Of a stretch of DNA of 64,000 nucleotides, positions 49,424 to 63,423 are shown in pieces. Source of the stretch: Planosporangium thailandense (GTDB lineage Bacteria; Actinomycetota; Actinomycetes; Mycobacteriales; Micromonosporaceae); NCBI RefSeq assembly GCF_011947195.1, contig NZ_JAATVY010000014.1:62001-126000 (forward strand). The letters run 5' to 3'. The notes below the pieces were generated by a model, which saw only the letters and a program-made list of their open reading frames with translations, ran no database searches and was not told where the DNA came from. The position numbers and the translations under genes were made by a program. Positions within the stretch are counted from its first letter, which is position 1; the number at the start of each line of letters is the position of its first letter.

Positions 49424-49780
49424 GGCGCAAGGCGGTTCGTCGACACGAAACAGTCAGCAGCAAGTCAGCGAACGCGATGCTCACTTGTGCTCCTGGATGA
49501 CGTGGACGCTCTGGCGAGCTGTAGGAGCCAGCACCGCACGACAGCGAACGACAACGAGTCGCAGCCCGGATCGACGTTCACGCGGAAGAGGTCGGGCAGC
49601 TGTGGCAGGCGCAGCGCCTCGTGGCATAGCCCGGCGGCTACGGGGATGCCGGACTGCGCCGAGGACCAGTTGGGGACCACACGTCGTGCGCGATGCCGAA
49701 CGTGCAGCACCTCTCGGCACGTCAGTCGGGGCGGCATACCGCGTTTGACGTGCGGCAACGTGTAACGCAACGTCCTGGGG
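49424..49780. other. Non-coding or degraded stretch between IS remnants
   Basis: Open frames are present on both strands but none shows a recognisable family or consistent codon bias. It may be decayed flank of the IS256-type element that follows. Confidence 0.4.
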
Positions 49781-50070
49781 TCAAGGGGTCGTCGGGCCCG
49801 CGGCCACTTCCCGAACGAGGCCGCCGCGTACCGCACGACGGATGCGGGCGTTGACCGACTCGATGGCGTTGGTCGAACACACGACCTTACGAATTTCGGC
49901 GTCGAAGGCCAGGAACGGTACGAACTCCGCCCAAGCCTGCTCCCACAACCGCACGATAGCCGGATATTTGCCGCCCCAGGCCTCAGCGAACTCGGCGAAC
50001 CGCGCCCTCGCGGCGGCTTCGGTGGGGGCAGTGTAGACCGGTCGCAGCGCCTTGGCGATGGCGCCAGGCG
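49781..50070 (-). mobile_element. IS256-family transposase C-terminal remnant
   Basis: Minus-strand frame reads AIAKALRPVYTAPTEAAARARFAEFAEAWGGKYPAIVRLW (two parts), then FVPFLAFDAEIRKVVCSTNAIESVNARIRRAVRG. CSTNAIESVNARIRRA is the hallmark of IS256/mutator transposases just after the catalytic Glu region. Everything before and after is missing. Its left end abuts the truncated HNH-like gene. Confidence 0.85.
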
Positions 50071-50570
50071 ATGTCCTGGATGACCGGCCACAGCTGGGCG
50101 AGGCCGGCGCTCGTCTCGACCCCGACCTGCGAAGCAGGCAGCGGCTCCATTGCTGCGCGTCGATCGTACAGCGCCCTATACTCCTGCGCCGGCAGACTGT
50201 ACCCGCCTTCCCGCTCCTCCTCCGAGGACATGAGCATGGCCACGAGCACGGTCTTCTCCAACCATGCGGCGATTCGCCCCTGGCCAGCTTGAGCGATGTT
50301 TCCCGGTTCCCCGAGGATGAGCGGCGTCAGCACACGCTTCGCGACGTCCTCAAGCCGGCTCATCCAGCCGTTGTTACATGGCCCGCAGACATCACGAACT
50401 TTACGGTTGAACGGCGGAGTCACACCGATATTGCGCCCGATCCGGTTCAACGGCCCCGTCGTAAGGGCCACCGGATCAAGCTTGAGACCGATCCGAGACA
50501 GCCAGTCACCCAGCACATGCTCGCCGGTCAGCTTCCCAACTGCCCCGCAGAAGGGACAGGTCGCAGGCAC
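50068..50570 (-). pseudogene. HNH-endonuclease-like gene truncated by the IS256 remnant
   Basis: From ATG 50570 the protein reads CPFCGAVGKLTGEHVLGDWL and VRDVCGPCNNGWMSRLEDV. The paired CxxC motifs around GEHV are typical of zinc-binding HNH-like proteins in actinobacteria. After about 165 residues (VIQDIAW) the sequence runs into transposase DNA and the open frame continues only as out-of-frame transposase to 49983. The natural C-terminus is lost. Confidence 0.6.
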
Positions 50571-50693: not shown

Positions 50694-51911
50694 TCAGGAT
50701 GCTGACAATGCGCGGACTGCGACGCGCGTCGGGACGTGCGGTCGGCCCCCGGCGACCACCAGCCGCGCCTGGCGCAGCGCGTCCAGGTCGGTGAGCGGAT
50801 CGCCGTCGACGACCAGGACATCGGCGCGGTATCCGGCGGCGAGCCGGGCGGTCTCCGCCGCGATCCCGAGTGCCTCGGCGGTAGACACCGTCGTCAGTTC
50901 GATCACATGCTCTCGGGAGAAGCCCAGGTACTCGAAGAACTCCAGACTGCCCACCGGGTTGTCGAAGACCGCGTGCGGCACCCCGGCGTCGGTGCCGGCC
51001 AGCAGACCGACGCCGTGATCGTGCAGCCAGCGGTACCGGTCGAACATCACCTTGGCACGTTCGGTGCCGAACCGTTCCGCAAACCTGCGCCAGTTCGGGC
51101 TGGCCGCCGGGCAGACCCGGATCCCCTTGGCCGCCATCTCGATGGCGAGATCTTCCCGGACGTCGAAGCCGCCGTCGGCCATCCAGGTGCAGTGCTCGAT
51201 GGTGTCGACGCCGGCGGTGACGGCGGCTGCGATCCCGTCGGTGCCGTGGGCGTGCGCGGCGACAGGGAGGCCCGCCGCTCGTGCCTCCTCGACCACCACG
51301 GCGAGTTCGGCCGCGCTGAACTGGGTCGCCCAGATCGGCGGCCCGCTCTTGGTGAGCCCGCCGCCGGTCACCATTACCTTGACCACCGCGGCGCCGGCGC
51401 TGGCGTTGCGGCGGACCAGGTCGCGGATCGCGTCCTCGCCGTCGACCTCGCCACCGAGGAACCCGCAGTGCCCGCCGGGTGAGGTCAGCGGCATGCCGGC
51501 GGCGAGGACGCGTGGGCCGGGCAGGGTGCCGGACTCGATCGCCCGGCCGAGCTGTATGGCCAGCCCGTGGCGGTCGCCCAGATCCCGCACGGTGGTCACT
51601 CCGCTGTCCAGTAGCTGTCGTGCCCGGCCGGCCATGCCCAGCAGCAGGTCGGTGTCGCTGCTGGCGTGCAGGGCACCGACAGGGTCGGAGCTTGCGTCGA
51701 AGGCGAGGTGGACGTGTCCGTCGATCAATCCCGGTAGCACGGTACCGTCTGGAAAGGAGAGTACTGCGACGTCGGGCGCGGCGGTCGCGAGTACCTCCGG
51801 TTCGGTGCCGACGGCGACGATCGTGTCGTCGCGGATCAGCACCGCGCCGTCCTTGATCCGCTGTCCAGCCGGTCCGAGCAGTGCCTGACCCGCGCAGATC
51901 AGCAGCTCCAT
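50694..51911 (-). CDS. Amidohydrolase, imidazolonepropionase/prolidase-like
   Basis: 405 residues from ATG 51911 (GGGAGGG upstream). Metal sites GLIDGHVHLAFDA, a Lys in VVKVMVTGGGLT, PVAAHAHGTDGIAAA, DTIEHCTWM and the Asp in LLAGTDAGVPHAV; C-terminal strand ADVLVVDGDPLTDLDAL. Members hydrolyse cyclic amides or dipeptides, or dechlorinate or deaminate rings. It lies at the end of the minus-strand EspR-like module and is probably co-transcribed with it. Confidence 0.9.
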   Translation of the reverse strand: MELLICAGQALLGPAGQRIKDGAVLIRDDTIVAVGTEPEVLATAAPDVAVLSFPDGTVLPGLIDGHVHLAFDASSDPVGALHASSDTDLLLGMAGRARQLLDSGVTTVRDLGDRHGLAIQLGRAIESGTLPGPRVLAAGMPLTSPGGHCGFLGGEVDGEDAIRDLVRRNASAGAAVVKVMVTGGGLTKSGPPIWATQFSAAELAVVVEEARAAGLPVAAHAHGTDGIAAAVTAGVDTIEHCTWMADGGFDVREDLAIEMAAKGIRVCPAASPNWRRFAERFGTERAKVMFDRYRWLHDHGVGLLAGTDAGVPHAVFDNPVGSLEFFEYLGFSREHVIELTTVSTAEALGIAAETARLAAGYRADVLVVDGDPLTDLDALRQARLVVAGGRPHVPTRVAVRALSAS

Positions 51912-51948
51912 GCCCTGTCCCTCCCTGTCTACCCGTAGTTTCACGTGG

Positions 51949-52422
51949 TCAGTCGGCTTCCGGCTCGAGCCGGAAGATCGCCAGTTGGTCGGTGTGCTGT
52001 CGAATCTCGGACACCGGTGCGTCGGGCCGGAACGGCCACTGGTTGGTGGGCCGGTCCAGCTTGCGCAGGTAGGCGGCGACGACGGGGGCTGCTTCGTCGC
52101 CGTCGACGAGCACGGCCCGGTGATCGGGCACCGGGTCGCGTTCGACCCGACAGTTCCCGGCGGCGAGGAGGTTACGCACCCAGTCGCGGCCACGGTGCGG
52201 CGCGCAGAGGTACCGCCGGCAGTCCAGCTGGGTCACCGCGATCGGGAAGGTCCGCAGCTGCCCGGAGTGGCGACCGCACACGTGGACCACGCGCAGCACG
52301 TAGCACTCCTCGGCGTACGGCTGCGGCTCGGCGGCCCGGATCCGGTCCACCATCGCGGTGTTGAAGGCCCGCATCTCCTCGCGGGTCATCGTGGTCGGAT
52401 CTGTGCGGCGCGGTTCGGTCAC
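51949..52422 (-). CDS. Deazaflavin (F420)-dependent nitroreductase-family protein
   Basis: 157 residues from GTG 52422 (146 from ATG 52389). The split-barrel pattern LRVVHVCGRHSGQLRTFPIAV resembles the GRRSGQ-RT stretch of F420-binding Ddn-like proteins, followed by DWVRNLLAAGNCRVERD. The substrate is unknown. It lies 28 bases after the seven-helix protein and 37 before the amidohydrolase, as cargo of module 1. Confidence 0.78.
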   Translation of the reverse strand: MTEPRRTDPTTMTREEMRAFNTAMVDRIRAAEPQPYAEECYVLRVVHVCGRHSGQLRTFPIAVTQLDCRRYLCAPHRGRDWVRNLLAAGNCRVERDPVPDHRAVLVDGDEAAPVVAAYLRKLDRPTNQWPFRPDAPVSEIRQHTDQLAIFRLEPEAD

Positions 52423-52450
52423 GGCTCTCCATCTTGGTTCGGTAGTGGTC

Positions 52451-53563
52451 TCAGCCTTGGCGCAGCGCCTCTGACAGCGCCACGAGCTGTTCGGCATCGG
52501 CGTCGATCCCATCCTCGGCCGGTACCGCGACGGGCACTGCGCCCGCCGGGGCGGGCTCCCCGGCCTGGTACCGGCGGAGCGCGGCGCGCAGATGCGCGGC
52601 CAGTTGCGCCGCCTCGCCGGGTGCACTGGCCTCGGCAAGGTACGGGCTGATATGCACGAGCCCGTCCCTGCACTCGATGAGCCGCCGGTAGTACCCCCGG
52701 TGCACGCCACGCAGCCGCAGCGCGTCCCGCCACCGGCTGGACGGCACCCGCGACAGCGCGTCCTGCGGAAACGCCTCGTGCAGCAGGGCCCACAGCGGGT
52801 AGAGACGCTGGTACGTCCGGCGATGCTGCCACCACACCCGCCCTGCCACGATGCGGGTGGCGACCCCCGGATACGTCACCCCGACCAGGAACAGCGGGAC
52901 GGCGACCGTGACGGCGAGCGACGCCGCGACCAGCAATTCCGGCGGCACCGTGCCGCCGCGCCAGCGGACCACCACGAACACCGCGCGAGCCGAACCGGCC
53001 AGAACCATGCCCGCCATCGCTAACGCGGCGAGCCGCAACCCGACCGAGTGCGGACGCCGCGAGCTGCGGGCGTACCGCCAGGTCCAGCGCAATGCCATCG
53101 CCAACGCGTACACCAGGTACAGCCCGGCAGTCAGGTAGAACACCGCGAGCTCGGGAACCCGCATGTCGGCGGTTGCGTAGGTGCGGTCACGGACGCCGGG
53201 TGGGGTGAGCACCGTCGCGACGGTGATGACCACCGCTGTCGTCAGCAGGGGCAGCGCCTCCCAGCGGGCGCGTCGCTGCCCGCGACGCGAATCCGCGGCC
53301 GAGTACAGGTAGAAACACATCAGCCAGTACACGGTGCACAGCAGCAGGATGTTCTGAGCCAGCTTGGCTGCGCCGACGCCGACAGCGCCGTCGATCACCG
53401 CCTGCCCCTTCGGCAGGCCGATCGGATAGGCGACGGCAGCGGACACCAGGCAGAGCGTCACCGCACGCAGCGGCCGGTCGTGCGGCGCCCTGCTGACCTG
53501 ACGGAGCGTCCAGCCGACGGCGGTGACGAAGATGAGGGCGACCAGGACGTTGACGGCCGTCAT
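52451..53563 (-). CDS. Seven-helix membrane protein, MAB_1171c type (module 1)
   Basis: 370 residues from ATG 53563. Seven hydrophobic segments fill the first 235 residues (for example LVALIFVTAVGWTL, NILLLCTVYWLMCFYLYSA, LLVAASLAVTVAVPLFLVGV). A soluble tail follows with RRTYQRLYPLWALLHEAF and helices rich in Arg and Ala. The family is called a putative transporter, but the layout, seven helices plus a cytoplasmic domain, also fits a receptor. ATGA overlap with the metallopeptidase gene; paralogue at 60854. Confidence 0.85.
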   Translation of the reverse strand: MTAVNVLVALIFVTAVGWTLRQVSRAPHDRPLRAVTLCLVSAAVAYPIGLPKGQAVIDGAVGVGAAKLAQNILLLCTVYWLMCFYLYSAADSRRGQRRARWEALPLLTTAVVITVATVLTPPGVRDRTYATADMRVPELAVFYLTAGLYLVYALAMALRWTWRYARSSRRPHSVGLRLAALAMAGMVLAGSARAVFVVVRWRGGTVPPELLVAASLAVTVAVPLFLVGVTYPGVATRIVAGRVWWQHRRTYQRLYPLWALLHEAFPQDALSRVPSSRWRDALRLRGVHRGYYRRLIECRDGLVHISPYLAEASAPGEAAQLAAHLRAALRRYQAGEPAPAGAVPVAVPAEDGIDADAEQLVALSEALRQG

Positions 53564-54093
53564 AGCCAGCCCCGTCGGTCGCTCAGCGCGGTCTGCACCC
53601 GCCGCAGCGACGGATCGTCGGCCAACTTCGGAGCGACCCGATCCAGCACGGACGCCCACTCCAGGATGATCGTGGCCACCAGTTCGGCTTCCCGTTCGTG
53701 CTCCTCGTCATAGGAGGTGCGGCGCAGCGCCCGCCGCACCGCGTCGAGAGAGAGGTTGGGAAACATCTGCCGCCAGAACTCGTCGTCGGTGTCGTCGCTT
53801 TGGTGATCGGCGAGAATGTGGCCCACCTCGTGCAGAACGATGTGGTCCTGGTGAGTCCTGCTGGTCTCCCGCTGGTAGAGGATGTAGTCGGCGGATGCGC
53901 TAGCGATCCACAAGCCGAACGGCCCCGGCACCGGCAACGGGTAGGGCAGCAGCCGGATCGGCCGGCCACGGCGTTCCCCGAGCCGTGCGCAAAGGACATC
54001 GACCCGCAGCGGCGGTTGGATGTCCAGCGTCCGTAGCTCCCGCCTGCACCGCCGCCGCAACTCGCGCTCCCGCACGTCAATCCCCGCATCCAT
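53560..54093 (-). CDS. HExxH metallopeptidase-like protein, ImmA/IrrE or ParH-like (module 1)
   Basis: 177 residues. HEVGH at 88-92 supplies the zinc-binding helix and EREAE at 133-137 a likely third ligand, the arrangement of ImmA/IrrE-type peptidases. No signal peptide or membrane segment, so cytoplasmic. ImmA and IrrE cleave HTH repressors; the neighbour upstream is an HTH protein, making it a candidate substrate. Coupled by ATGA to the membrane protein. Confidence 0.82.
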   Translation of the reverse strand: MDAGIDVRERELRRRCRRELRTLDIQPPLRVDVLCARLGERRGRPIRLLPYPLPVPGPFGLWIASASADYILYQRETSRTHQDHIVLHEVGHILADHQSDDTDDEFWRQMFPNLSLDAVRRALRRTSYDEEHEREAELVATIILEWASVLDRVAPKLADDPSLRRVQTALSDRRGWL

Positions 54094-54102
54094 GCGCGCT
54101 CG

Positions 54103-54555
54103 TCACGTCGGCGCCGAGCCGTCGCGCTCGGCCTGCTCGAGCCGATAGATCACGTCGAGCAGATCCATCACTTGCCGGCGTCGCTCGGCGGAAAGCTCAC
54201 CGGCCCGCATCGCCATAAGCCGCACGTCCCGACCGGCGTTGGTCTCGTTGACGCGTGCCTGCTCGATCCGGAGACGCTCGAGCTGCTCCTCGACCCGCCC
54301 GGTCACCTCGTCGTCGAAGAAGTACGCAGCGGGCACGCCGAAGAAGTCGGCGAGCGCCTGAAGATGACGAAGGGTCGGGTTGTCCTTCATGCCTCGACGC
54401 AGCTGCCAGACGTAGCTCTGCGAGATCGTCACACCGGTCTTGCGAATCGCGGCGGCGACCTGCTCGTTGCTGTACTTCTGCCCGCCGCGAGGCTTCATCG
54501 TCGCGAACAGGTAGTTCAGTTTCTCGCCTAGGCTCCGCCCCGCCTGTATCGCCAT
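54103..54555 (-). CDS. EspR-like XRE-family DNA-binding protein (module 1)
   Basis: 150 residues. LGEKLNYLFATMKPRGGQKYSN, ISQSYVWQLRRGMKDNPTLRHL and ALADFFGVPAAYFFDDE match the N-terminal HTH of mycobacterial EspR, including the FF-x5-AYFFDDE turn; a helical C-terminal part (RRQVMDLLDVIYRLEQAE) suits dimerisation. First gene of module 1, nine bases before the metallopeptidase. Likely regulates this operon. Confidence 0.88.
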   Translation of the reverse strand: MAIQAGRSLGEKLNYLFATMKPRGGQKYSNEQVAAAIRKTGVTISQSYVWQLRRGMKDNPTLRHLQALADFFGVPAAYFFDDEVTGRVEEQLERLRIEQARVNETNAGRDVRLMAMRAGELSAERRRQVMDLLDVIYRLEQAERDGSAPT

Positions 54556-55100
54556 CGGTTTCCCTCCGGCGCGCCCATGCTGTGCGACCTTCCACTCGTG
54601 AAGACACTATCAGGGACGTCGATGTATGACAGTGGAAGCTTGGTCGGCTGTCCGACTTTGCTGCTCTGGGCAACCGCTCAGTTCAGGCACCAAAGAAGAT
54701 GTCCAACGGGAAGGATTCACGCGAGTCGCGAAAGACCCGGCGATCCCCGGTTTGGTAGCGAAGGCGGTTCGGTGGGGCCGCCCGGCAGCCGGCCAGGCAG
54801 GGGTGTAGGCCGCCACGTGCAGCGGCGCCGCTGGGTGAGGGAGGCGAACAATCCGTCAAAGCCGGCCGCGTACTCATCCAACGGCCCTGGCGCAGGGGCA
54901 GGCCCGACGCGCAGCTATCACGTGCGTCAACACCCCGCTGACGCCGCGCGCCCTGTCCGGCCCTAACGAACCGCCGTTAAGCGACTGTTCAGTGGTGTCC
55001 GTCAGGCTGCTGATCGGTTGGTCGGCACGTCCGCCGACCGACTTCGTCAGCCGATGGACGAACGCGCGCGCCCGTCGGCACATACCGAGGAGGTATAGAA
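54556..55100. other. 545-base intergenic region, promoters of two divergent units
   Basis: No convincing gene on either strand. It separates the EspR-like gene (minus) from the frame-switching gene (plus), so it should hold both promoters. CGAGGAGGTATAGAA at its right end is a strong ribosome site. I see no clear operator palindrome. Confidence 0.4.
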
Positions 55101-55728
55101 ATGTCTCTTGAGGACGCTGACAAGGCTCTTGCCGGTCTGACCGGCATCGACTCGGAGGAGCTGCAGAAGTTCCTCGAGGAGAAGGCCGGTATCGCGCCGG
55201 ACGAGGAAGCCCAGGGCACCGTCATGGCGGCCGCCGCGTCGATCGCCTTCCCAGTCGCTGGACCCGGACCTACCGCCCGCGATAGCCGTCTACTTCAAGG
55301 ACCTGGCGGCGGCTGGAGTCGATCCGGAACTGCTCGCTCAGGAGAAGGAGGCGACCATGCTGCTGCTTGCGTTGGCTCCGGACGCCACGGCGAACTTCGT
55401 GCGGCTGTACACGCGGCTCCGCGCGGAGCCGGCGAAGCTCGCGGCCGCCATGGACGTCATGCACCGCTTCCAGCAACTTGCCGCTGCCCCGGCCGACGAG
55501 CAGGAGGTGCAGCGGCTGGTCGGCGATCTCGTCGCGCTGTACCCCGGCTGGCTCGGCGAGACGCACGGGGCCACCGATATCGCCACGGCCGAGGCGGCGA
55601 GCCGGGTGTTCGCCGACCACCTGCACTCCTATTCGCTCGCACAACGGCGCGTGATCGAGACGGTGAGTGCGATCGCTCCCCGCGCCCGCATGGGAGAGCA
55701 GCCGGCCGCCCGATCCGACTTGCCCTGA
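55101..55728 (+). CDS. Unknown protein whose coding frame changes internally
   Basis: From ATG 55101, with GAGGAGG well placed, the frame reads SLEDADKALAGLTGIDSEELQ and on to MAAAASIAF. G/C-rich third positions end near 55255. Coding bias then continues in the +1 frame (LDPDLPPAIAVYFKDLAAAG, PELLAQEKEA) and on through LLLALAPDATANFVRLYTRLR to ARSDLP at 55728. Either an indel has broken a gene of about 210 codons, or the ribosome shifts frame, or there are two genes: ATG 55357 has its own AAGGAGG. No known family; the second part is all-helical. Confidence 0.5.
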
Positions 55729-55791
55729 CGCCACGTCACACCTTCAGGCTGAGATCCGTACGGTAGCCGGAGCGATCGGAATGGGTGGGCT

Positions 55792-56670
55792 ATGGCCGGC
55801 AAGAGACGTGGACGCGTGCTGCGATGGGTGCCGTTCCTCGTGGTGGCCACCGAGCTTGTGTTGGTGGTGGGAGGCGTGGTCAGCCTCGCCGACGCCGCGG
55901 TTGCGGTGGTGCTCATCGAGATTGCCCTGCTTGGTGTCGTGGTCGGTGAGGTGGTCACCATGCGGGCCGCCTACCGGAAGGCCCGCCGGTCGGGCGCCGA
56001 CCGGGCACCGGCGATGTCGGCTGCGCTGGACGCCGCGCTGCCACCCGTGGTCGCGATGCTGATCCGCCAGGAGCTGCGGGTGTTCGGCAGCCTGCTGTCG
56101 GTCGTGCGACGGCGTACCAGGGTCAGCCCCGGCGACAGCGCGCTGCCCTACGGTAGGCGACTGCGCGGGCTGTTGATCGTGCTCGCGGGCCTGTCGCTTG
56201 CCGAGGTCGCGGTGGTCGAAGCGTTCGTGCCCTGGCCGGTTGTGCGCTGGGTGCTGTTGGCGTTGGGAATCTATGGCCTGCTGTGGGTGGTCAGCTTCGT
56301 CGCCTCGTTGTCGGTCTACCCGCACACGATCGGACCGCGGGTTCTCCGGCTGCGGTTCGGCCCCTTCACCGACCTGGCGGTGCCCACGGAGAAGATCGCC
56401 ACCGCAGTGGAGAACACCACGGGAACACACCGGAAGACCGTCGAGACCGACGACGAGACGTTGTCGGTCTCGCTCATGGGGACAAGCACCGTACTGGTCG
56501 ACCTCGCCGAACCGCACGAGGTCGACCTCGGCAGAAGGGGCCGCCACACCGTACGGCGGCTGCGGTTTGATGCCGATGACCCAGCGGACGCCGTGCGGCT
56601 GCTGAGGGAAGCCGTCGCACCGCGCGTCGCGTCGCGGGAACCGTCCGACCCACGCGGCGGTCGGCGCTGA
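55792..56670 (+). CDS. Membrane protein of unknown function
   Basis: 292 residues. Two hydrophobic pairs: WVPFLVVATELVLVVGGVVSLA with AVVLIEIALLGVVVGEVV, and GLLIVLAGLSLAEVAVVEAFV with WVLLALGIYGLLWVVSFVAS. The C-terminal third is a soluble beta-rich domain (SLMGTSTVLVDLAEPHEVDLG) ending in a pleckstrin-like helix (DDPADAVRLLREAV). Family not recognised; similar proteins are found as lone genes in actinobacteria. Confidence 0.75.
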   Translation: MAGKRRGRVLRWVPFLVVATELVLVVGGVVSLADAAVAVVLIEIALLGVVVGEVVTMRAAYRKARRSGADRAPAMSAALDAALPPVVAMLIRQELRVFGSLLSVVRRRTRVSPGDSALPYGRRLRGLLIVLAGLSLAEVAVVEAFVPWPVVRWVLLALGIYGLLWVVSFVASLSVYPHTIGPRVLRLRFGPFTDLAVPTEKIATAVENTTGTHRKTVETDDETLSVSLMGTSTVLVDLAEPHEVDLGRRGRHTVRRLRFDADDPADAVRLLREAVAPRVASREPSDPRGGRR

Positions 56671-56774
56671 TCCAGCTTCTACTCGGCCGGCACTCGTCAA
56701 GCCGGCTGACGAGATGACGCATGTCCAGATGCTGGTCGCCGGTGAGGCGTACCGGTCGGAACGGAGAGGTGGTT

Positions 56775-57206
56775 GTGCAGATGGTACGAGCGTGGCCTGG
56801 TCGCGGCGTGAAACGAGTGCTCGCTGTCGTCGCGATTGGTGCAGGATGCACCGCCGGAGTCGGCGCGCCCGCATTCGCCGACACCGGGTTGACGGTGGCT
56901 CCATCCAGCGGTTTGGCCGACCGGCAGACCGTCACGGTCTCTGCCAGCGGGTTCCAACCGGGTCATGACGTGTACGTAGTTGAGTGCGGTCAGAGTGGAC
57001 CGGCATGCCATAGCACCGAGTACCGGCACGCCTCGGTCGACGGCGACGGGCGGCTCCAGGTGTCGTTGCCGGCGTACCGGACGTTCGCTGGCGTCGGTGG
57101 GGACGGCGTGGCGCGCAGCGTCGACTGCGCGGCGGTTCAGTGCAGTTTCGTGGCGCTCGACCCGGTCACCAACGAACACGCCGAGGCGGTGATCAGCTTC
57201 GGCTGA
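56775..57206 (+). CDS. Secreted neocarzinostatin-family protein
   Basis: 143 residues from GTG 56775 (or 141 from ATG 56781); GGAGAGG precedes it. An N-terminal signal peptide (VKRVLAVVAIGAGCTAGV, cleavage after AFA) is followed by an Ig-like domain: LTVAPSSGLADRQTVTVSASGF, with two Cys pairs, ECGQSGPAC and DCAAVQC, spaced like the disulfides of neocarzinostatin apoprotein. In enediyne producers such proteins hold the chromophore, but no enediyne genes are near, so another small ligand or a surface role is more likely. Confidence 0.85.
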   Translation: MQMVRAWPGRGVKRVLAVVAIGAGCTAGVGAPAFADTGLTVAPSSGLADRQTVTVSASGFQPGHDVYVVECGQSGPACHSTEYRHASVDGDGRLQVSLPAYRTFAGVGGDGVARSVDCAAVQCSFVALDPVTNEHAEAVISFG

Positions 57207-57270
57207 GGTAAGCCGTACTGCCCGCGCCACGGAACCATCCGCTCGGTTCGGGGGACGCTAGCGGCGGGGA

Positions 57271-58017
57271 TTAGGACAACAGTGACGGTTCGAGTTCGAG
57301 GAAGCTCCAGTTAGGATGTTCGATGAGGTCTCCGCGCAGGATGGCCGCCTCGGCGGACTGTAGCGTCGGGTGCGGATCGATGCCAAGCTCACGGCGCAGC
57401 GTCTGCCGCGTCCGTCGGTAGGTCTTGAGTGCGTCGGCGATCCGCCCTGACCGCTGTAGGCAAGCCATGAGGCGCAGGCAGAGATCCTCGTCCAGCGGTT
57501 CGGCTCGGACAGCTTGGAACAGCTCTGGTAGAAGGCGTGCATGTCGGTCAAGGCCGATCTCGAGATCGACCCATCGCTGGAACACCGCGAGTCGGCGCTC
57601 GGCGAGTGCAGGTCCACTCCAGGCGCGGAGCGCCAGTCGAAACGCTTCTGAGGCGGCGCGGTAGCGATGTTCCTTGCGAGCCATCTCGCCTACCGACTCG
57701 AGCGCGGTGAAGACAGTGAAGTCGCACGCTGCCGGCTCGAGGCGGAGCAAGTATCCGTCCGGTTGGGTCTCCACGACATCGGCGGCGCCGGCGGTGCGCA
57801 GTGTCTTGCGGATGTGCGAGACCTGGACCTGCACCTGGTTGCGCGCCGCCGGTGGTGGCGAGCATCCCCAGATCATGTCGATGATGGTGTCCGTGCGCAC
57901 GGTCCTGTTGGCGTAAAGCGCAAGGATTGCCATCATTGCTCGCTGTCGGGGCCGCTGTAGGCGAACGGGCTTCCTGCCGACACTGACTGCGAGCGGTCCC
58001 AACAAGGAAACCTTCAT
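57271..58017 (-). CDS. SARP-type regulator (AfsR/DnrI family)
   Basis: 248 residues. An OmpR-like winged helix (KVSLLGPLAVSVGRKPVRLQ, QVQVSHIRKTLR, ETQPDGYLLRL) is followed by the BTAD helical domain (FTVFTALESVGEMARKEHRY to ALKTYRRTRQTLRRELGIDPHP). SARPs usually activate secondary-metabolite genes. It is convergent with the neocarzinostatin-like gene and could control it or the unlinked P450. A lone SARP domain without ATPase. Confidence 0.93.
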   Translation of the reverse strand: MKVSLLGPLAVSVGRKPVRLQRPRQRAMMAILALYANRTVRTDTIIDMIWGCSPPPAARNQVQVQVSHIRKTLRTAGAADVVETQPDGYLLRLEPAACDFTVFTALESVGEMARKEHRYRAASEAFRLALRAWSGPALAERRLAVFQRWVDLEIGLDRHARLLPELFQAVRAEPLDEDLCLRLMACLQRSGRIADALKTYRRTRQTLRRELGIDPHPTLQSAEAAILRGDLIEHPNWSFLELEPSLLS

Positions 58018-58222
58018 GTGTACCCCCGTGGACGTTTCTGCGGTCTCGGGCGTGCTGCGCGGCGAGAGCGATGAGTTAAGGCCGTGCGAATGAGCCGATC
58101 GACAGCGTGGCGCGGTGGGCGAGGTGGCGCGTTTCCTATTGCCTCATCCTGAAAGAACGGGCTGAAATCGGGCGATGTCATTTGTTCTGCAAGCACGACG
58201 ACGCTGGTCGGTTGGTCGTACG

Positions 58223-58891
58223 TCAACGGCCGCGACTGAGGTCATGATCATGACCTGGGCTCTCTCGTTCGCGCCTGGCGTTGGGTATGGCGTTCTGGCT
58301 GAGCAGCTGGTCGGCGTGACACACACGGTTACGGCCGGCGTTCTTCGCTGCTCGCAAGGCCGTGTCGGCTTGGCTCATGAGTTCGAAGACAGTGATGCCG
58401 TGAACAAGTGAGCCACCGGCAACCCCAATTGACGCGGTACGAGCAACGAAGGTGTCCGTCCCTCTGCTGCCCCCGACGACGGGGATTCGGGCGTTCTGAA
58501 TCCCTTCACGGATTTGCTCTGCCACCGTCACGGCACCTGCACGATCAGTGTTCGGCAATAGGGCGAGAAACTCGTCTCCTCCGTGGCCGCCGTATCTACC
58601 CACCACGTCTCCGTCTCGTGCGACGAGGCGAACAACCGCAGCGGCAGCACGTAGGAGTTCGTCACCAACGAGATGGCCGAAGGATCCGTTCACCTGCTTG
58701 AAGTTGTCCAGGTCGATGATCGCCAGTGCTGCTGCTCGTCCGTCGCGGCGGGCTGCCTGAAGGGCTTGCTCTGCTTCGCTGTCCCAGCCCCACCGATCCA
58801 GTAGGCCAGTGAGCTTGTCGGTTACCCAATAACCTAGAGGCTGGCCGCACGATGCACAGTGCTCAACAGGTCTGTCGTCGCCCACTGTCAT
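58223..58891 (-). CDS. GGDEF-domain diguanylate cyclase
   Basis: 222 residues from ATG 58891; the frame opens to 59059 but the extra part looks non-coding. A short N-terminal CASCGQPLG zinc-like knuckle leads into DKLTGLLDRWGWD and IIDLDNFKQVNGSFGH, and the active loop is RYGGHGGDEFLALLPN, so the catalytic GGDEF is intact with three extra residues before it. No sensor domain or membrane segment. Expected to make cyclic di-GMP. Confidence 0.88.
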   Translation of the reverse strand: MTVGDDRPVEHCASCGQPLGYWVTDKLTGLLDRWGWDSEAEQALQAARRDGRAAALAIIDLDNFKQVNGSFGHLVGDELLRAAAAVVRLVARDGDVVGRYGGHGGDEFLALLPNTDRAGAVTVAEQIREGIQNARIPVVGGSRGTDTFVARTASIGVAGGSLVHGITVFELMSQADTALRAAKNAGRNRVCHADQLLSQNAIPNARRERESPGHDHDLSRGR

Positions 58892-59711
58892 GGCGATCGT
58901 TGCTCGTAGCTGACTGTGGTTGACGGCTGAATGAACGGCGGGGGCTTGGTTGTATGGCAAAGACCGTAACTGCAGTGTGAGGTCCGCTCTCGTCTCGCGG
59001 CGTAAGGAGTGATCCTCGCTGCTCGTTGGAAACGAGCGAAATTGTCCTCCATGAAGCACACGCGCACCCCGATTCTCGAATTTGTTAAAAGGGCTGCGAG
59101 TTCAGGTCGGCTCGCAGCGTGCTTGTCGGGTGGTACCTCCGCCTGTGATGTGCTGCCACGCTTTAGATGTCGCGGTTTTGACGGCGTCCTGGATTCGGTC
59201 CGCCGTTCTTGACTATCGGCTCGCCTGTGGTGCCCGGTGACGGGCCGTCGGTCATTGGCTACGTGTCTGCGAGAGGTGTTACTCAGCCCTGTTTGCGTAT
59301 GAGTGACGGCATCGTTATATGCACTCCTCGGGCATTGCCGCCACTCATATCCGCGTGCGGCGGCGTACGCCCGCGATCGGCTGGGACGGTTACCATTGAT
59401 GAGAGGCGATGTTACGCGCGCGAGACAGGTTGGTGCAACGCGCGTTTAATGAGTTTGCCGTAAAGGGCAGGTCGATCACCACTCTTCGCAGTGGTGGCAT
59501 GACATTGCGTGCATATCCTGCACTGCTATGGTGGTATATTCCGACGATTTCATTACCTAATGTCTGCTTCTTAACTGGGCTGATGCTGGTATCCGACATC
59601 TGGCGTTGCTCAACAGCTGTTGTAATGATCTATGGCCGCCTAGACTCGGCGACGGTAGCTGTCGGGCCTCGAGCAGCGGGCCCCGTCAAGGCGTGGGTGC
59701 GAGGAACTGCT
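58892..59711. other. 820-base region of lower GC without a convincing gene
   Basis: Local GC is clearly lower than in the rest of the window, and open frames lack codon bias. The frame from 59409 that runs into the EspR-like gene reads poorly (RAYPALLWWYIPTISLPN) and is probably not translated. The region should contain the promoter of module 2 and the GGDEF promoter. It may be foreign or decayed DNA. Confidence 0.45.
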
Positions 59712-60248
59712 ATGGCTCTGGATCTTCCCCGAAGCCCTCGGGGCTCCCTTGCCGACAGGCTCAACTACCTGTTCGCGATGCTCCGGCCCGCCCCAGACGC
59801 GGTAGGTCGCGGCAGGCCGGGGCGCGAGTACTACAACAGCGAGATCGCCGACCGGATCAACGGCCCGGGCGAGACGTCGGAGCGGATCTGCCGCATCGTC
59901 GGGGAGCAGGTCACGATCAGCGGCGCCTACATCGGCGAACTGCGTCAAGGCAAGTCGACCGACCCACGTCTCAGTCACCTCAAGGCGTTGGCGATTGCCT
60001 TCGGGGTGCCGACCTGGTACCTGACCGGTGACGAGCCCGGTCCGTCGAGGTCGCGCGATGTGGAACGGGACCTGGAGCGGCTGGACCACATGCGCCGCCT
60101 GGGCGTACAGAAGGTACTCCTGCGGGACGTGTTGTCGGATAGCGGTCTATCTGACCGCAGTCAGCAGGCGATGACCGCTATCTTCCAGCAGTTGTTGGAG
60201 ATGGAGGGCCTGAGCCCGGCTTCGGATCAACCGGAGCACAACACGTGA
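59712..60248 (+). CDS. EspR-like XRE-family DNA-binding protein (module 2)
   Basis: 178 residues from ATG 59712 (GAGGAACTGCT upstream). SLADRLNYLFAMLRP, an insert of about 25 residues (GPGETSERICRIVG), then ISGAYIGELRQGKSTDPRLSHL and ALAIAFGVPTWYLTGDE follow the EspR-like pattern of module 1. The C-terminal part is longer, with LERLDHMRRLGVQKVLLRDV. First gene of module 2; 7 bases before the metallopeptidase. Confidence 0.87.
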   Translation: MALDLPRSPRGSLADRLNYLFAMLRPAPDAVGRGRPGREYYNSEIADRINGPGETSERICRIVGEQVTISGAYIGELRQGKSTDPRLSHLKALAIAFGVPTWYLTGDEPGPSRSRDVERDLERLDHMRRLGVQKVLLRDVLSDSGLSDRSQQAMTAIFQQLLEMEGLSPASDQPEHNT

Positions 60249-60255
60249 CACGCGC

Positions 60256-60861
60256 ATGACGGTCGCAACCTGGCAATGGGGGATCACCGAGCAACGGGAC
60301 GGCGAACAGGTGGGCGAAGTAGCAAGGCGGCGTCGCTACGCCAGGATCGTTAAAGATCTCCGGCTGCCGCGACGACTGACTATCGACAGGCTGTGCCAGA
60401 TCGTGGGGTCGCATCTGGGGAGCCCGATCCAGTTACGTCGAGTGGAGATGCCACCAGACCTCCCAAGCGGGGTCGTCGTCGTGACGCCGAACGTCCTCGG
60501 CGTGTTCGTCGACGCGCTCGCCCAACCCTGGCTGCAGGACGGTATCGCCTGCCATGAGCTGGCCCATTTGCTGCTCGGCCACCACCTCACGCCGCTGACC
60601 GACACTGACGCGACCCAGCGGATACTTCCCACCATCGAGCCGTGGGCGGTGGAGCAGGCGCTCACCGCACCCGTGGAACGCACGCTGGCGCGGACCTGCT
60701 ACGACGGCGTCCCCGAACGGGAAGCCGAGGTGCTGGGCACCGAAATGTTCGGCCACCTCAATCCATGGCCCGCTGAGCAGACTTGGGACGTCCCGGCGCA
60801 GGCCGCCCACGTGATCCGAAATATCGAGCGGGCACTCGGCGACGGAGCCGCGCGTGAATGA
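60256..60861 (+). CDS. HExxH metallopeptidase-like protein (module 2)
   Basis: 201 residues. HELAH at 100-104 and EREAE at 154-158 reproduce the zinc site of the module 1 protein; otherwise similarity is low. The N-terminus has LRLPRRLTIDRLCQIVGSHLG, a lead-in helix also present in ParH-like proteins. Cytoplasmic by composition. Eight-base overlap with the membrane-protein gene. Confidence 0.82.
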   Translation: MTVATWQWGITEQRDGEQVGEVARRRRYARIVKDLRLPRRLTIDRLCQIVGSHLGSPIQLRRVEMPPDLPSGVVVVTPNVLGVFVDALAQPWLQDGIACHELAHLLLGHHLTPLTDTDATQRILPTIEPWAVEQALTAPVERTLARTCYDGVPEREAEVLGTEMFGHLNPWPAEQTWDVPAQAAHVIRNIERALGDGAARE

Positions 60862-62212
60862 CGTCCTCTACCCGCTCGCCGCCGCAGCTGCGTGGACGGC
60901 ACTGCTCTATCGCCTGGTCCGCGGCGTCAGGCGCGATGCTCGCGATCCGGCCCTGTATGTCGTCTGTGGCGCCTTCGGCCTCATGGGGCTGGTGTTCACG
61001 GTCTCGACGCCACGGGTGTGGGGCGCCATCGATCACACACTGAACGTCCCCAACTTCTCGCTGCTCCTATCGCAAAGCGGCGTCATCGCCTTCTCCGGCA
61101 CCATCCAGTGTTTGATCATTTTCTGGACGCACGACCGACGCCACGGGTGGCGGCGCGCACGATGGCGCCTGCTGGCCGTGCTGGCCGTGCTGGCCGTGCT
61201 TGCGGTGATGGCCGTGCTGTTCTTCGGCGTTCACCCAGGTCCGGAGCGGATCCGCGCGGCGGCGGCCGCGTACGCCGGCGATCCCGCCTACGCGCTGTAC
61301 CTGGCGTTCTACCTGCTGATGGTGGCGGTCGGCGTCATCGACATCGTCCGCCTGTGCCTGCCGCACGCCCGCGACGCTGGCCGCTCCTGGCTGAGTAGGG
61401 GACTACGAGCGGCCGCGATCGGCGCCGGGCTCGGCCTGGTGTACTGCGTTATCCGGGCCGCGACATTGGTCGGAGCGCAGCTCGGCGTCGATCCCCAGTC
61501 CTGGGAATTCCTCGTCCCGATCACATCCTCGGTTGGCGCGTTTCTGATCGTGGTGGGGCTGACCCTGCCTGCGCTGGGGCCCCGCTTGTCCGCCGCCCGG
61601 ACCTGGGCGCAACGACAGCGCTCGTACCGCGAGCTCTACCCGCTGTGGGATGCGGTGCGGCGCACGATGCCCGAGGTGGTGATGGACGCACGGTTGGGCC
61701 GCGGCGGACGCGCACCCCGGTTCGTCCTTCGCCGCCTCGACGAGCGCCTACACCGACGCGTCATCGAAATCGGTGATGGACTCCGCCAGTTGCGGCCCTA
61801 CCTCGACCCTGGCATCGACGTCGTAGCGGCGTCCTCCACGGACGGCGGCGACTCCGCCGACGGTCAACAAGCGGCGCCAGCCGTCGCCGCGCAAATCCGA
61901 GCGGCCCTGTACCGCTTCGAACAGGAACGCCGCGCACGAATTGACGCGCAAGGGACCGCGACAGCCACCGAGCTGACCCGACGACAACGCTGGGATACCT
62001 GGGCCGGGACCTGGCCGGCAGCCTGGGAAGCCGCCCACTCCCAGCGCCGCCAGCACAATGCCGTTGCGCGCAAGCCAGGCGGCCGCGCCCGGCAGCAGGA
62101 CTTCGTCGGCCACGTCGCCTGGCTGACCAGTGTGTCGCAGGCGTTCGCGACCTGCCCCACCCCACCCGGGGCCGGGGCGACAATAGACATCGACATGACG
62201 GGACGGATGTAG
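60854..62212 (+). CDS. Seven-helix membrane protein, MAB_1171c type (module 2)
   Basis: 452 residues from GTG 60854. Seven hydrophobic segments, then a tail of about 200 residues with RQRSYRELYPLWDAVRRTM, which matches YQRLYPLWALLHEAF of the module 1 protein at the same place. The tail ends in a long charged, low-complexity stretch. Helix 4 is encoded by a nine-base tandem repeat. The P450 starts two bases after its stop, so the two are coupled. Confidence 0.85.
   Translation: MNDVLYPLAAAAAWTALLYRLVRGVRRDARDPALYVVCGAFGLMGLVFTVSTPRVWGAIDHTLNVPNFSLLLSQSGVIAFSGTIQCLIIFWTHDRRHGWRRARWRLLAVLAVLAVLAVMAVLFFGVHPGPERIRAAAAAYAGDPAYALYLAFYLLMVAVGVIDIVRLCLPHARDAGRSWLSRGLRAAAIGAGLGLVYCVIRAATLVGAQLGVDPQSWEFLVPITSSVGAFLIVVGLTLPALGPRLSAARTWAQRQRSYRELYPLWDAVRRTMPEVVMDARLGRGGRAPRFVLRRLDERLHRRVIEIGDGLRQLRPYLDPGIDVVAASSTDGGDSADGQQAAPAVAAQIRAALYRFEQERRARIDAQGTATATELTRRQRWDTWAGTWPAAWEAAHSQRRQHNAVARKPGGRARQQDFVGHVAWLTSVSQAFATCPTPPGAGATIDIDMTGRM
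61172..61216 (+). repeat. Nine-base tandem repeat inside the membrane-protein gene
   Basis: CTGGCCGTG occurs three times perfectly, then once degenerate and once with one or two changes, encoding LAVLAVLAVLAVMAV in the fourth membrane helix. In-frame slippage could lengthen or shorten the helix by three residues. Confidence 0.7.
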
Positions 62213-62214
62213 AC

Positions 62215-63423
62215 GTGCAATCCCAGGCCGGCTCCGCGTCGCTGCCCGTGACGAGCGACTTCCTTGCCGACCCCTACCCCTTTTACGCCCGGCTGCGGCA
62301 GACCGGGCCGGCGCACCGGATGACCCTGCCGGACGGTTCCGCGGTCTGGCTGGTCACCCGCTACGCCGACGTTCGTGCCGCCCTGGCCGACCCTCGACTG
62401 TCTTTGAGTAAGGCCAACGCCACCGGAGGATGGCGCGGCTTCTCCCTACCGCCCGCGCTCGACGCGAACCTGCTCAACATGGATCCTCCCGACCACACCC
62501 GCATCCGCAGGCTAGTAGGCCAGGCGTTCACCGCTCGCCGCATTGACCGACTACGACCCTGGGTCCAGCACGTGGCGGACAACCTGCTCGACACCGTCGC
62601 TCCGACCGGCCGCGCGGACCTGATCGCCGACCTCGCCGGACCACTGCCCGTGGCCGTCATCTGCGAACTAATCGGCGTGCCCGAGGCGAACCGCCCCGAC
62701 TTCCGCTCCTGGACCGACGCCATGATCGCCCCACCTCCGGACGACCCGCGCGCCGCGGCCAAGGCCGTCGGCGCCATCCACACCTTCCTCGCCGACCTGG
62801 TCGCCGCCAGGCGCGCCGAACCCGGCCACGACCTGCTGTCGGCGATGATCGCAGCACGCGACGAGGACGACCGGCTATCGGAAGACGAACTGACCTCCCT
62901 GGCCTTCCTCATCCTCTTCGCCGGCTACGAGAACTCCGTCCACACCATCGGCAACGGCCTGCTAACCCTGCTGCGTCACCCCGACGCACTCGCCAACCTA
63001 AGGGCCGAACCACAACACGTCACGAGCGCCGTCGAGGAAATACTCCGCTTCGAGCCACCATCACCCGTGGCGATCCGACGGTTCCCCACCGAGGACATCA
63101 CCATCGGCGGCGTGACGGTACCCAAAGGCGAAACAGTGCTCCTCGCGGTAGCGGCGGCCAACCGCGACCCGGACCGATTCACCGAACCAGAGGACTTTGA
63201 CCCACAGCGCGCGGACAACCCCCACCTGACCCTCGGCCACGGCATCCACTACTGCCTCGGCGCCCCTCTCGCGCGCATGGAAATCGAGATCGCCATCGGC
63301 ACCGTTGTCCGGCGATTCCCGGCCATCAAGCTGGCGGTGTCCGCCGACGAACTTCAATGGCGCCCGTCCTTCCGAAGCCGGGCACTCCAGGCACTCCCGG
63401 TGCTGCTGGATGCGCGGAGCTGA
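62215..63423 (+). CDS. Cytochrome P450 (module 2 cargo)
   Basis: 402 residues from GTG 62215. Oxygen-binding helix FAGYENSVH (Asn instead of the usual Thr at ET), ExxR in EEILRFEPP, haem Cys (about residue 347) in LGHGIHYCLGAPLARME, with Leu in place of the usual Phe at the start of the motif. CYP107-like bacterial P450, usually a secondary-metabolite tailoring or xenobiotic enzyme. No ferredoxin gene nearby. Confidence 0.93.
   Translation: MQSQAGSASLPVTSDFLADPYPFYARLRQTGPAHRMTLPDGSAVWLVTRYADVRAALADPRLSLSKANATGGWRGFSLPPALDANLLNMDPPDHTRIRRLVGQAFTARRIDRLRPWVQHVADNLLDTVAPTGRADLIADLAGPLPVAVICELIGVPEANRPDFRSWTDAMIAPPPDDPRAAAKAVGAIHTFLADLVAARRAEPGHDLLSAMIAARDEDDRLSEDELTSLAFLILFAGYENSVHTIGNGLLTLLRHPDALANLRAEPQHVTSAVEEILRFEPPSPVAIRRFPTEDITIGGVTVPKGETVLLAVAAANRDPDRFTEPEDFDPQRADNPHLTLGHGIHYCLGAPLARMEIEIAIGTVVRRFPAIKLAVSADELQWRPSFRSRALQALPVLLDARS

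Follow-up and report, generated by a model that had tools for sequence, protein, structure and literature searches.

A gene module of an EspR-like regulator, an HExxH protein and a seven-helix membrane protein with varying cargo enzymes in Planosporangium thailandense and other actinobacteria

A 64,000-nucleotide stretch of the actinobacterium Planosporangium thailandense (assembly GCF_011947195.1, contig NZ_JAATVY010000014.1, positions 62,001 to 126,000; hereafter the window) carries the same three-gene operon twice, on opposite strands and with different enzyme genes at the 3' end of each copy. The genes encode a small helix-turn-helix (HTH) regulator that resembles EspR of Mycobacterium tuberculosis, a protein with an HExxH motif (HEX) and a seven-helix membrane protein (TM). 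What could such a trio do, and why would it be attached to different enzymes at each place? We find that the three genes form a real module, whose parts are described below together with the relationship to EspR, and we consider whether the module may act as a receptor, a protease and a regulator in series.

The three-gene module in the window and in other genomes

Module A is located on the minus strand and consists of HTH_A (54103..54555, 150 amino acids), HEX_A (53560..54093, 177 amino acids) and TM_A (52451..53563, 370 amino acids). Module B occupies the plus strand with HTH_B (59712..60248, 178 amino acids; the start is a choice, the frame being open from 59409), HEX_B (60256..60861, 201 amino acids) and TM_B (60854..62212, 452 amino acids), the last of which has a long extra C-terminus beyond its DUF6545 tail. 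All six frames lie where the initial annotation had placed them. The HTH and HEX genes are separated by 9 base pairs (bp) in module A and 7 bp in module B, and the HEX and TM genes overlap by 4 and 8 bp, respectively; packed as closely as this (4 to 9 bp), each copy looks like one transcription unit. Identity between the copies is 39% for HTH (113 aligned columns, E value 6e-20), 29% for HEX (147 columns, 1e-8) and 27% for TM (356 columns, 5e-15), and identities of only 27–39% indicate that the modules are diverged paralogues and not a recent duplication, in agreement with the initial annotation. The motifs HExxH, EREAE, YxxLYPLW and LNYLFA, to which the initial annotation had drawn attention, are all found in both modules. 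Two details of that description require revision: across 23 relatives the YxxLYPLW segment shrinks to about LxPLW, and the FGVP turn ascribed to EspR is incorrect, as EspR reads FFRI there.

HEX_A carries HEVGH and EREAE, and HEX_B carries HELAH and EREAE. Among 26 aligned HEX sequences, H88, E89, H92, E133 and E137 are invariant, a glutamate downstream of HExxH being the presumed third zinc ligand. HExxH is present in 117/120 HEX sequences; of the three that lack it, two are truncated frames. The window HEX protein falls under the Pfam M78 cut-off; 14 of 21 HEX members match M78 at E <=0.1 (best 4e-4). Profile-profile comparison with hhalign gave 95.5% (E 1.4e-8, 81 columns) against an M78 set for which 29 hits yielded 23 extracted and 18 aligned sequences; a smaller alignment gave 90.1%, and the TM profile, used as a control, 0.1%. 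Judged by these profiles, HEX is probably a divergent relative of ImmA/IrrE (M78), in line with the earlier assignment. Separately, two stand-alone HExxH-family proteins (L296 and L297) have lost the catalytic glutamate (HAVGH and HAIGH), with no membrane-protein hit in the region.

Both membrane proteins belong over their whole length to the MAB_1171c family, NCBIfam NF042915 (330.6 bits for TM_A and 252.5 for TM_B, cut-off 100), and match Pfam DUF6545 with 90.1 and 89.7 bits (cut-off 24.4; E 2.3e-25 for TM_A). TM_A is modelled as a GPCR-like (G protein-coupled receptor-like) bundle of seven helices with a mean predicted local distance difference test score (pLDDT) of 86.7; the best structural matches listed are GPCR folds, and all 50 matches listed, in one view of the structure library, are seven-helix receptors. 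The charges of the loops predict an N-terminus outside and a helical DUF6545 domain inside the cell, which agrees with the cytoplasmic tail first proposed. Within this tail, L254 and A322 are invariant among 23 sequences, and P256, L257, P266, R293 and D300 are conserved at >=90%. It is conceivable that the membrane protein is a transporter, that the HExxH and HTH genes serve solely to regulate its expression or turnover, and that the cargo enzymes act on the transported compound. The NCBIfam name, putative transporter, is consistent with this, and an MAB_1171c mutant with about half the biofilm mass is discussed as a transport gene mutant in the available part of one report (PMC8707978). However, that part of the report gives no transport assay behind the designation, the structural matches in the one library view are receptors, and the conserved cytoplasmic domain would suit signalling better. 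We regard a transporter as unlikely and favour a putative receptor. In the literature searched, DUF6545 is not mentioned and MAB_1171c appears in one paper.

The initial annotation had stated that rare co-occurrence of the three genes would speak against a module. Co-occurrence was counted in a class-level draw of 196 genomes including the home genome, among which 42 have a TM hit and 28 have one above the cut-off; the first pass scored nine candidates per genome, and copies may be missed. Fifty-nine regions were fetched for the TM hits other than those of the home genome, which were read separately, and four hits below 23 bits (G179 twice, G105 and G068); one of the regions (L155) gave no TM segment at the threshold. 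A six-frame scan yielded 64 TM segments, 52 of which are preceded on the same strand by HEX at a distance of no more than 600 bp, so that this pair is far from rare and the module is upheld; the HTH gene lies upstream on the same strand in 32/64 and the full trio is present in 28/64, so that for the regulator the expectation of co-occurrence is only half borne out. Counted over the called genes of these regions, HEX is next upstream of 48/62 TM genes vs 5/692 other genes, and a wider control over all loci at hand gave 5/1772 other genes.

The reverse count gave a similar picture. A HEX profile search of the same 196 genomes, with 16 candidates scored in each, set against a TM list of the hits above 23 bits plus one further TM (G131), found 76 HEX places, 58 of which have TM directly downstream (54/72 without the home genome). 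Two of the other 18 are in reordered modules, with the order TM, HTH, HEX in L039 and HEX, an enzyme dependent on flavin adenine dinucleotide (FAD), TM in L134. From the remaining 16, twelve regions of 13–14 kilobases (kb) were fetched; the twelve comprise nine HTH-HEX pairs, the two glutamate-less HEX genes mentioned above and one further HEX alone, and no TM hit was obtained in any of them. A conserved pair of a 212–218 amino acid HTH and an HExxH protein, with the membrane gene absent, is seen at L287–L295.

The home genome (7.01 Mb, 114 contigs) contains four NF042915 genes above the cut-off, each preceded by HEX and HTH genes on its own strand. The cargo at the 3' end of the other two modules is a PAP2-like membrane protein, just under the Pfam cut-off, and an S-adenosylmethionine (SAM)-methyltransferase-like protein, under the cut-offs. 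Six EspR-like HTH genes were found at home (E <=1e-5), four in modules and two as orphans near one module. A shared operator was considered for these six genes and rejected, as no 8-mer is common to more than 2/6 of their 200 bp upstream regions; an inverted repeat precedes one orphan gene and is not general. The 52 named relatives of module A nearly all have HEX upstream of TM (50/52; L066 has no HEX, and the contig of L089 possibly stops short of it), and a small EspR-like HTH lies upstream in 8/52.

Divergence of the three proteins is correlated. For 50 trios, distance matrices gave r 0.90 for TM-HEX, 0.75 for HEX-HTH and 0.69 for TM-HTH, with 0/5000 permutations as high and with shared species descent still included in these values. 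An earlier set of 69 trios, which gave higher values, included another HTH type, and the restricted 50 were used. Taken with the gene order and the counts above, the HTH, HExxH and membrane proteins constitute a real module.

Cargo enzymes and mobile-element neighbours

The two window copies differ in cargo, as first noted. TM_A is followed on the minus strand by cargo A1 (51949..52422, 157 amino acids), a protein resembling F420-dependent (deazaflavin) nitroreductases with family matches below the cut-offs (TIGR00026, E 1.3e-8 and 35.5 bits against 46.35, scored on a longer frame; Pfam F420H2_quin_red, E 0.0075), and by cargo A2 (50694..51911, 405 amino acids), an amidohydrolase (Pfam Amidohydro_1, E 5.9e-37). 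The boundaries of both were set by codon statistics, the frame 50694–52193 being over-long. TM_B is followed on the plus strand by cargo B (62215..63423, 402 amino acids), a cytochrome P450 (Pfam p450, E 2.2e-39).

Across genomes this variation is not arbitrary. On a TM tree of 89 proteins, a quick tree with many weak inner branches for which the Streptomyces amidohydrolase loci were thinned to 10 before counting, the identity of the directly downstream gene is clustered: it changes 24 times vs a shuffled mean of 49.7, and 0/200 shuffles were as low. The amidohydrolase changes 2 times, P450 once, the PAP2-like protein 5 times and the FAD enzyme 8 times. Module A falls in the clade of the amidohydrolase, in front of which it has the F420-type gene as an insertion; a homologue of this amidohydrolase, the hallmark of the clade, is present in 47/52 named loci. 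A protein that clusters with a PPOX-type gene of one relative (L070) is present in 21/52; in L070 this gene lies upstream of HEX in the opposite direction and scores above the NCBIfam cut-off for an F420-dependent class. A P450 of the same cluster as cargo B follows the two nearest relatives of TM_B, in L160 and L161. Cargo thus varies between copies yet goes with the receptor clade, and cargo that tracks receptor clades would allow the attached enzymes to serve as clues to the ligands.

Mobile-element genes adjoin many relatives of module A: an IstB-like cluster is found at 36 of the 52 named loci, a DUF2637 cluster at 31 and a relaxase cluster at 19, each cluster being named from one representative, and TM relatives are found on 6 plasmid records. 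It is possible that HTH and HEX are a toxin-antitoxin-like or mobile-element control pair and that the module is spread by mobile elements. This possibility draws on the neighbours just listed and on the proposal, in the available part of PMC2701414, that Xre-COG2856 pairs are toxin-antitoxin-like systems. However, no toxin family scored above its cut-off in either window module in NCBIfam and Pfam scans, and the cargo is metabolic and clade-specific. In many Streptomyces relatives a HTH_3 protein of about 290 amino acids adjoins the amidohydrolase, divergent from the mobile-element genes, and could be the element repressor, but element-repressor and HEX promoters at 24 loci share no exact palindrome in more than 2 loci of both sets and no common 10-mer in more than 3/24 loci. 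A shared operator that would link this repressor to the HEX promoter was therefore rejected and has a place only under the mobile-element explanation. Moreover, the EspR-linked copies described below lie beside the same gene in 60/62 genomes. We rate control of a toxin or a mobile element as quite unlikely, and retain the signalling operon as the preferred explanation.

As a separate observation, in Streptomyces relatives among L066–L112 (e.g., L070:12346-20214), HEX, TM and amidohydrolase often adjoin a HTH_3 protein, an IstB-like ATPase, WhiB, DUF2637 and a relaxase. Sixteen of the 52 named loci, all Streptomyces, were scanned for tRNA genes as integration sites, and none was found in 15/16; L080 alone has tRNA genes (two).

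EspR and the neighbouring genes of the window

The EspR-like character given to the HTH proteins by the initial annotation extends over their length. Residues 9–140 of HTH_A align to residues 6–129 of the EspR chain (PDB 3qf3) with E 6.3e-17, which covers the HTH and the C-terminal dimerisation part (Pfam HTH_3, E 9.3e-7), and residues 50–167 of HTH_B match EspR in PDB with E 5.9e-7. By these alignments the HTH protein is a full-length EspR homologue. In five genomes of a single genus, the TM-HEX pair adjoins a 132 amino acid HTH protein that is almost identical to EspR; we call this genus mycobacteria because the EspR orthologues of the fetched members are 78–86% identical to the solved EspR segment. 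In 118 genomes of the genus, the EspR orthologue is present in 117 and a TM gene in 62. Where TM is present, it has EspR no more than 600 bp away in 60/62 genomes; these amount to 61 places, with a median gap of 72 bp and convergent orientation in 60/61. One of the two exceptions has EspR and TM on different contigs and the other has an interrupted EspR. In a 12 kb region around EspR in one genome (L248), the gene looks interrupted, its last part being displaced towards TM by about 1.4 kb.

Nine loci of the genus without TM were read, and in them EspR lies directly beside a gene of 218–222 amino acids that is found elsewhere beyond HEX; HEX is absent in these nine. Three further places (L250–L252) carry extra EspR paralogues and neither TM nor HEX. 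In Williamsia (L115 and L117), the order HTH, HEX, TM is intact in tandem. In M. tuberculosis itself, the receptor and protease genes are not known to lie beside espR; a search of 316 genomes for one with the solved EspR sequence gave no hit at a very strict cut-off of 1e-74 and carries no weight here. Read in the simplest way, these findings make EspR look like the regulator of the present module. The counts within the genus cannot by themselves separate gain from loss of the EspR partners. We suggest, with slightly less than even confidence, that EspR may be the surviving regulator of a widespread actinobacterial receptor-protease-regulator system, that receptor and protease still stand beside it in many mycobacteria, that EspR was retained as a free-running nucleoid protein in lineages lacking the two, and that the window lineage adds a diguanylate cyclase. 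An upstream input for EspR-type regulators would thereby be proposed. The available part of the literature describes EspR as a nucleoid-associated protein that binds its own promoter and treats it as a stand-alone regulator, with no protease or receptor partner mentioned in that part (PMC3315491).

The diguanylate cyclase would be the small GGDEF-domain protein encoded divergently to HTH_B (58223..59059, minus strand; Pfam GGDEF, E 1.8e-36), which has an N-terminal CxxCGQP stretch. Its two closest home paralogues, among 67 GGDEF matches in the genome, are 56 and 51% identical and the next is 42% identical. Each of these two likewise stands divergent to an EspR-like HTH gene, which in one case is an orphan near a module. 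Such a divergent pair of a small GGDEF gene and an EspR-like HTH gene is present at three of the four home loci. This GGDEF type is rare, with six hits in four genomes among the 200 of an order-level draw. Three of the hits come from outside the home genome: that in G339 is at a module (locus L163), and those in G291 and G208 are elsewhere. With 1/3 outside hits at a module, GGDEF was rejected as a general module part; it is possibly a lineage-specific extra part at best. At L160, a more distant GGDEF protein adjoins the HTH gene. A cyclic di-GMP link with the MAB_1171c biofilm defect is speculation.

Between the modules, 56721–57206 on the plus strand encodes a Neocarzinostatin-family protein (Pfam E 1.6e-18) that adjoins a BTAD-type activator gene (57271–58017). 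Pieces that resemble a broken transposase, judged by eye only, lie 3' of the amidohydrolase (49465–50570, minus strand).

A possible signalling chain and its relation to known systems

The initial annotation had inferred that the membrane protein senses something, that its tail signals to the peptidase, that the peptidase acts on the HTH protein and that cargo enzymes are induced. We likewise infer every link of such a chain, from ligand sensing and tail-to-protease contact to HTH proteolysis and cargo regulation. Each copy would be a self-contained signalling operon, in which the seven-helix protein, its N-terminus outside and its DUF6545 domain inside, may sense the state of the membrane or a small molecule, probably a lipophilic one. 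The cytoplasmic tail would then control the cytosolic M78-like zinc metalloprotease encoded by the adjacent gene, the protease would inactivate or reshape the EspR-type regulator, and the altered regulator would change transcription of the operon and its enzyme genes. We judge the chances for and against this explanation as a whole to be evenly balanced.

Several observations weigh against a strict three-part chain. In 55/118 genomes of the mycobacterial genus, EspR is present with no TM hit at E <=1e-20; 21/64 TM segments have no HTH hit within 6 kb, 15 of these having a gene of the FAD-enzyme cluster in the region; and 9/12 fetched HEX regions hold an HTH-HEX pair with no membrane gene. Modules without HTH imply that the protease would have other substrates, and the genomes with EspR alone imply a regulator able to run without this control. 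The part that is missing from modules is TM or HTH and less often HEX. Because HTH–HExxH pairs occur without the membrane protein and HExxH–membrane protein pairs without HTH, the HExxH protein appears to be the hub. ImmA is required for the proteolytic inactivation of ImmR (PMC2701414), and IrrE cleaves DdrO (PMC7907104); the logic of such Xre-COG2856 pairs, combined with the pattern of missing parts, suggests as the likely chain that the membrane protein acts on the HExxH protein, this on the HTH protein and the latter on the cargo.

It is also possible that the HTH protein is an architectural nucleoid protein like EspR and no substrate at all, with HEX and the membrane protein forming a separate pair in which, for example, HEX trims the tail. 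The description of EspR as nucleoid-associated, the HEX-TM pairs without HTH in part of the family and the best correlation of distances between TM and HEX would all fit. However, the distances of HEX and HTH also correlate, and the HTH-HEX pairs without TM would not be predicted. We consider a purely architectural HTH protein improbable and continue to prefer the signalling operon. If so, two uncharacterised families, the DUF6545 membrane proteins and the adjoining HExxH proteins, would gain a shared role, and a bacterial class of GPCR-like receptors would become testable.

The components are known individually, namely pairs of Xre and COG2856 proteins, EspR and the MAB_1171c family. No publication that joins them was found in titles and abstract openings among the matches listed, and the combination of the trio, the clade-specific cargo and the link to EspR are new as far as our searches reach. 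With ImmR/ImmA of ICEBs1 and DdrO/IrrE of Deinococcus the module shares a small Xre-type regulator encoded with an HExxH protein of the same broad family and, as a proposed logic, the signal-triggered removal of the regulator. In contrast to these systems, the module includes a seven-helix membrane protein as its likely input, has a regulator of the EspR type and an HExxH protein too diverged for the Pfam M78 cut-off, and adjoins genes of metabolic enzymes. EspR itself shares full-length homology with the HTH proteins and, in most TM-bearing mycobacterial genomes, the position beside TM. BlaR1-BlaI and MecR1-MecI combine a membrane sensor, zinc protease activity and a cleaved DNA-binding repressor, and a similar logic of sensor, zinc protease and DNA-binding regulator is proposed here; there, however, sensor and protease are one protein, whereas here they are separate genes of other families. 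Finally, the conservons of Streptomyces are likewise repeated multi-gene signalling units in Actinomycetota, some of which carry attached P450 genes, but they consist of a histidine-kinase-like protein, a roadblock protein and a small GTPase, where the module described here would have a receptor, a protease and an HTH regulator.

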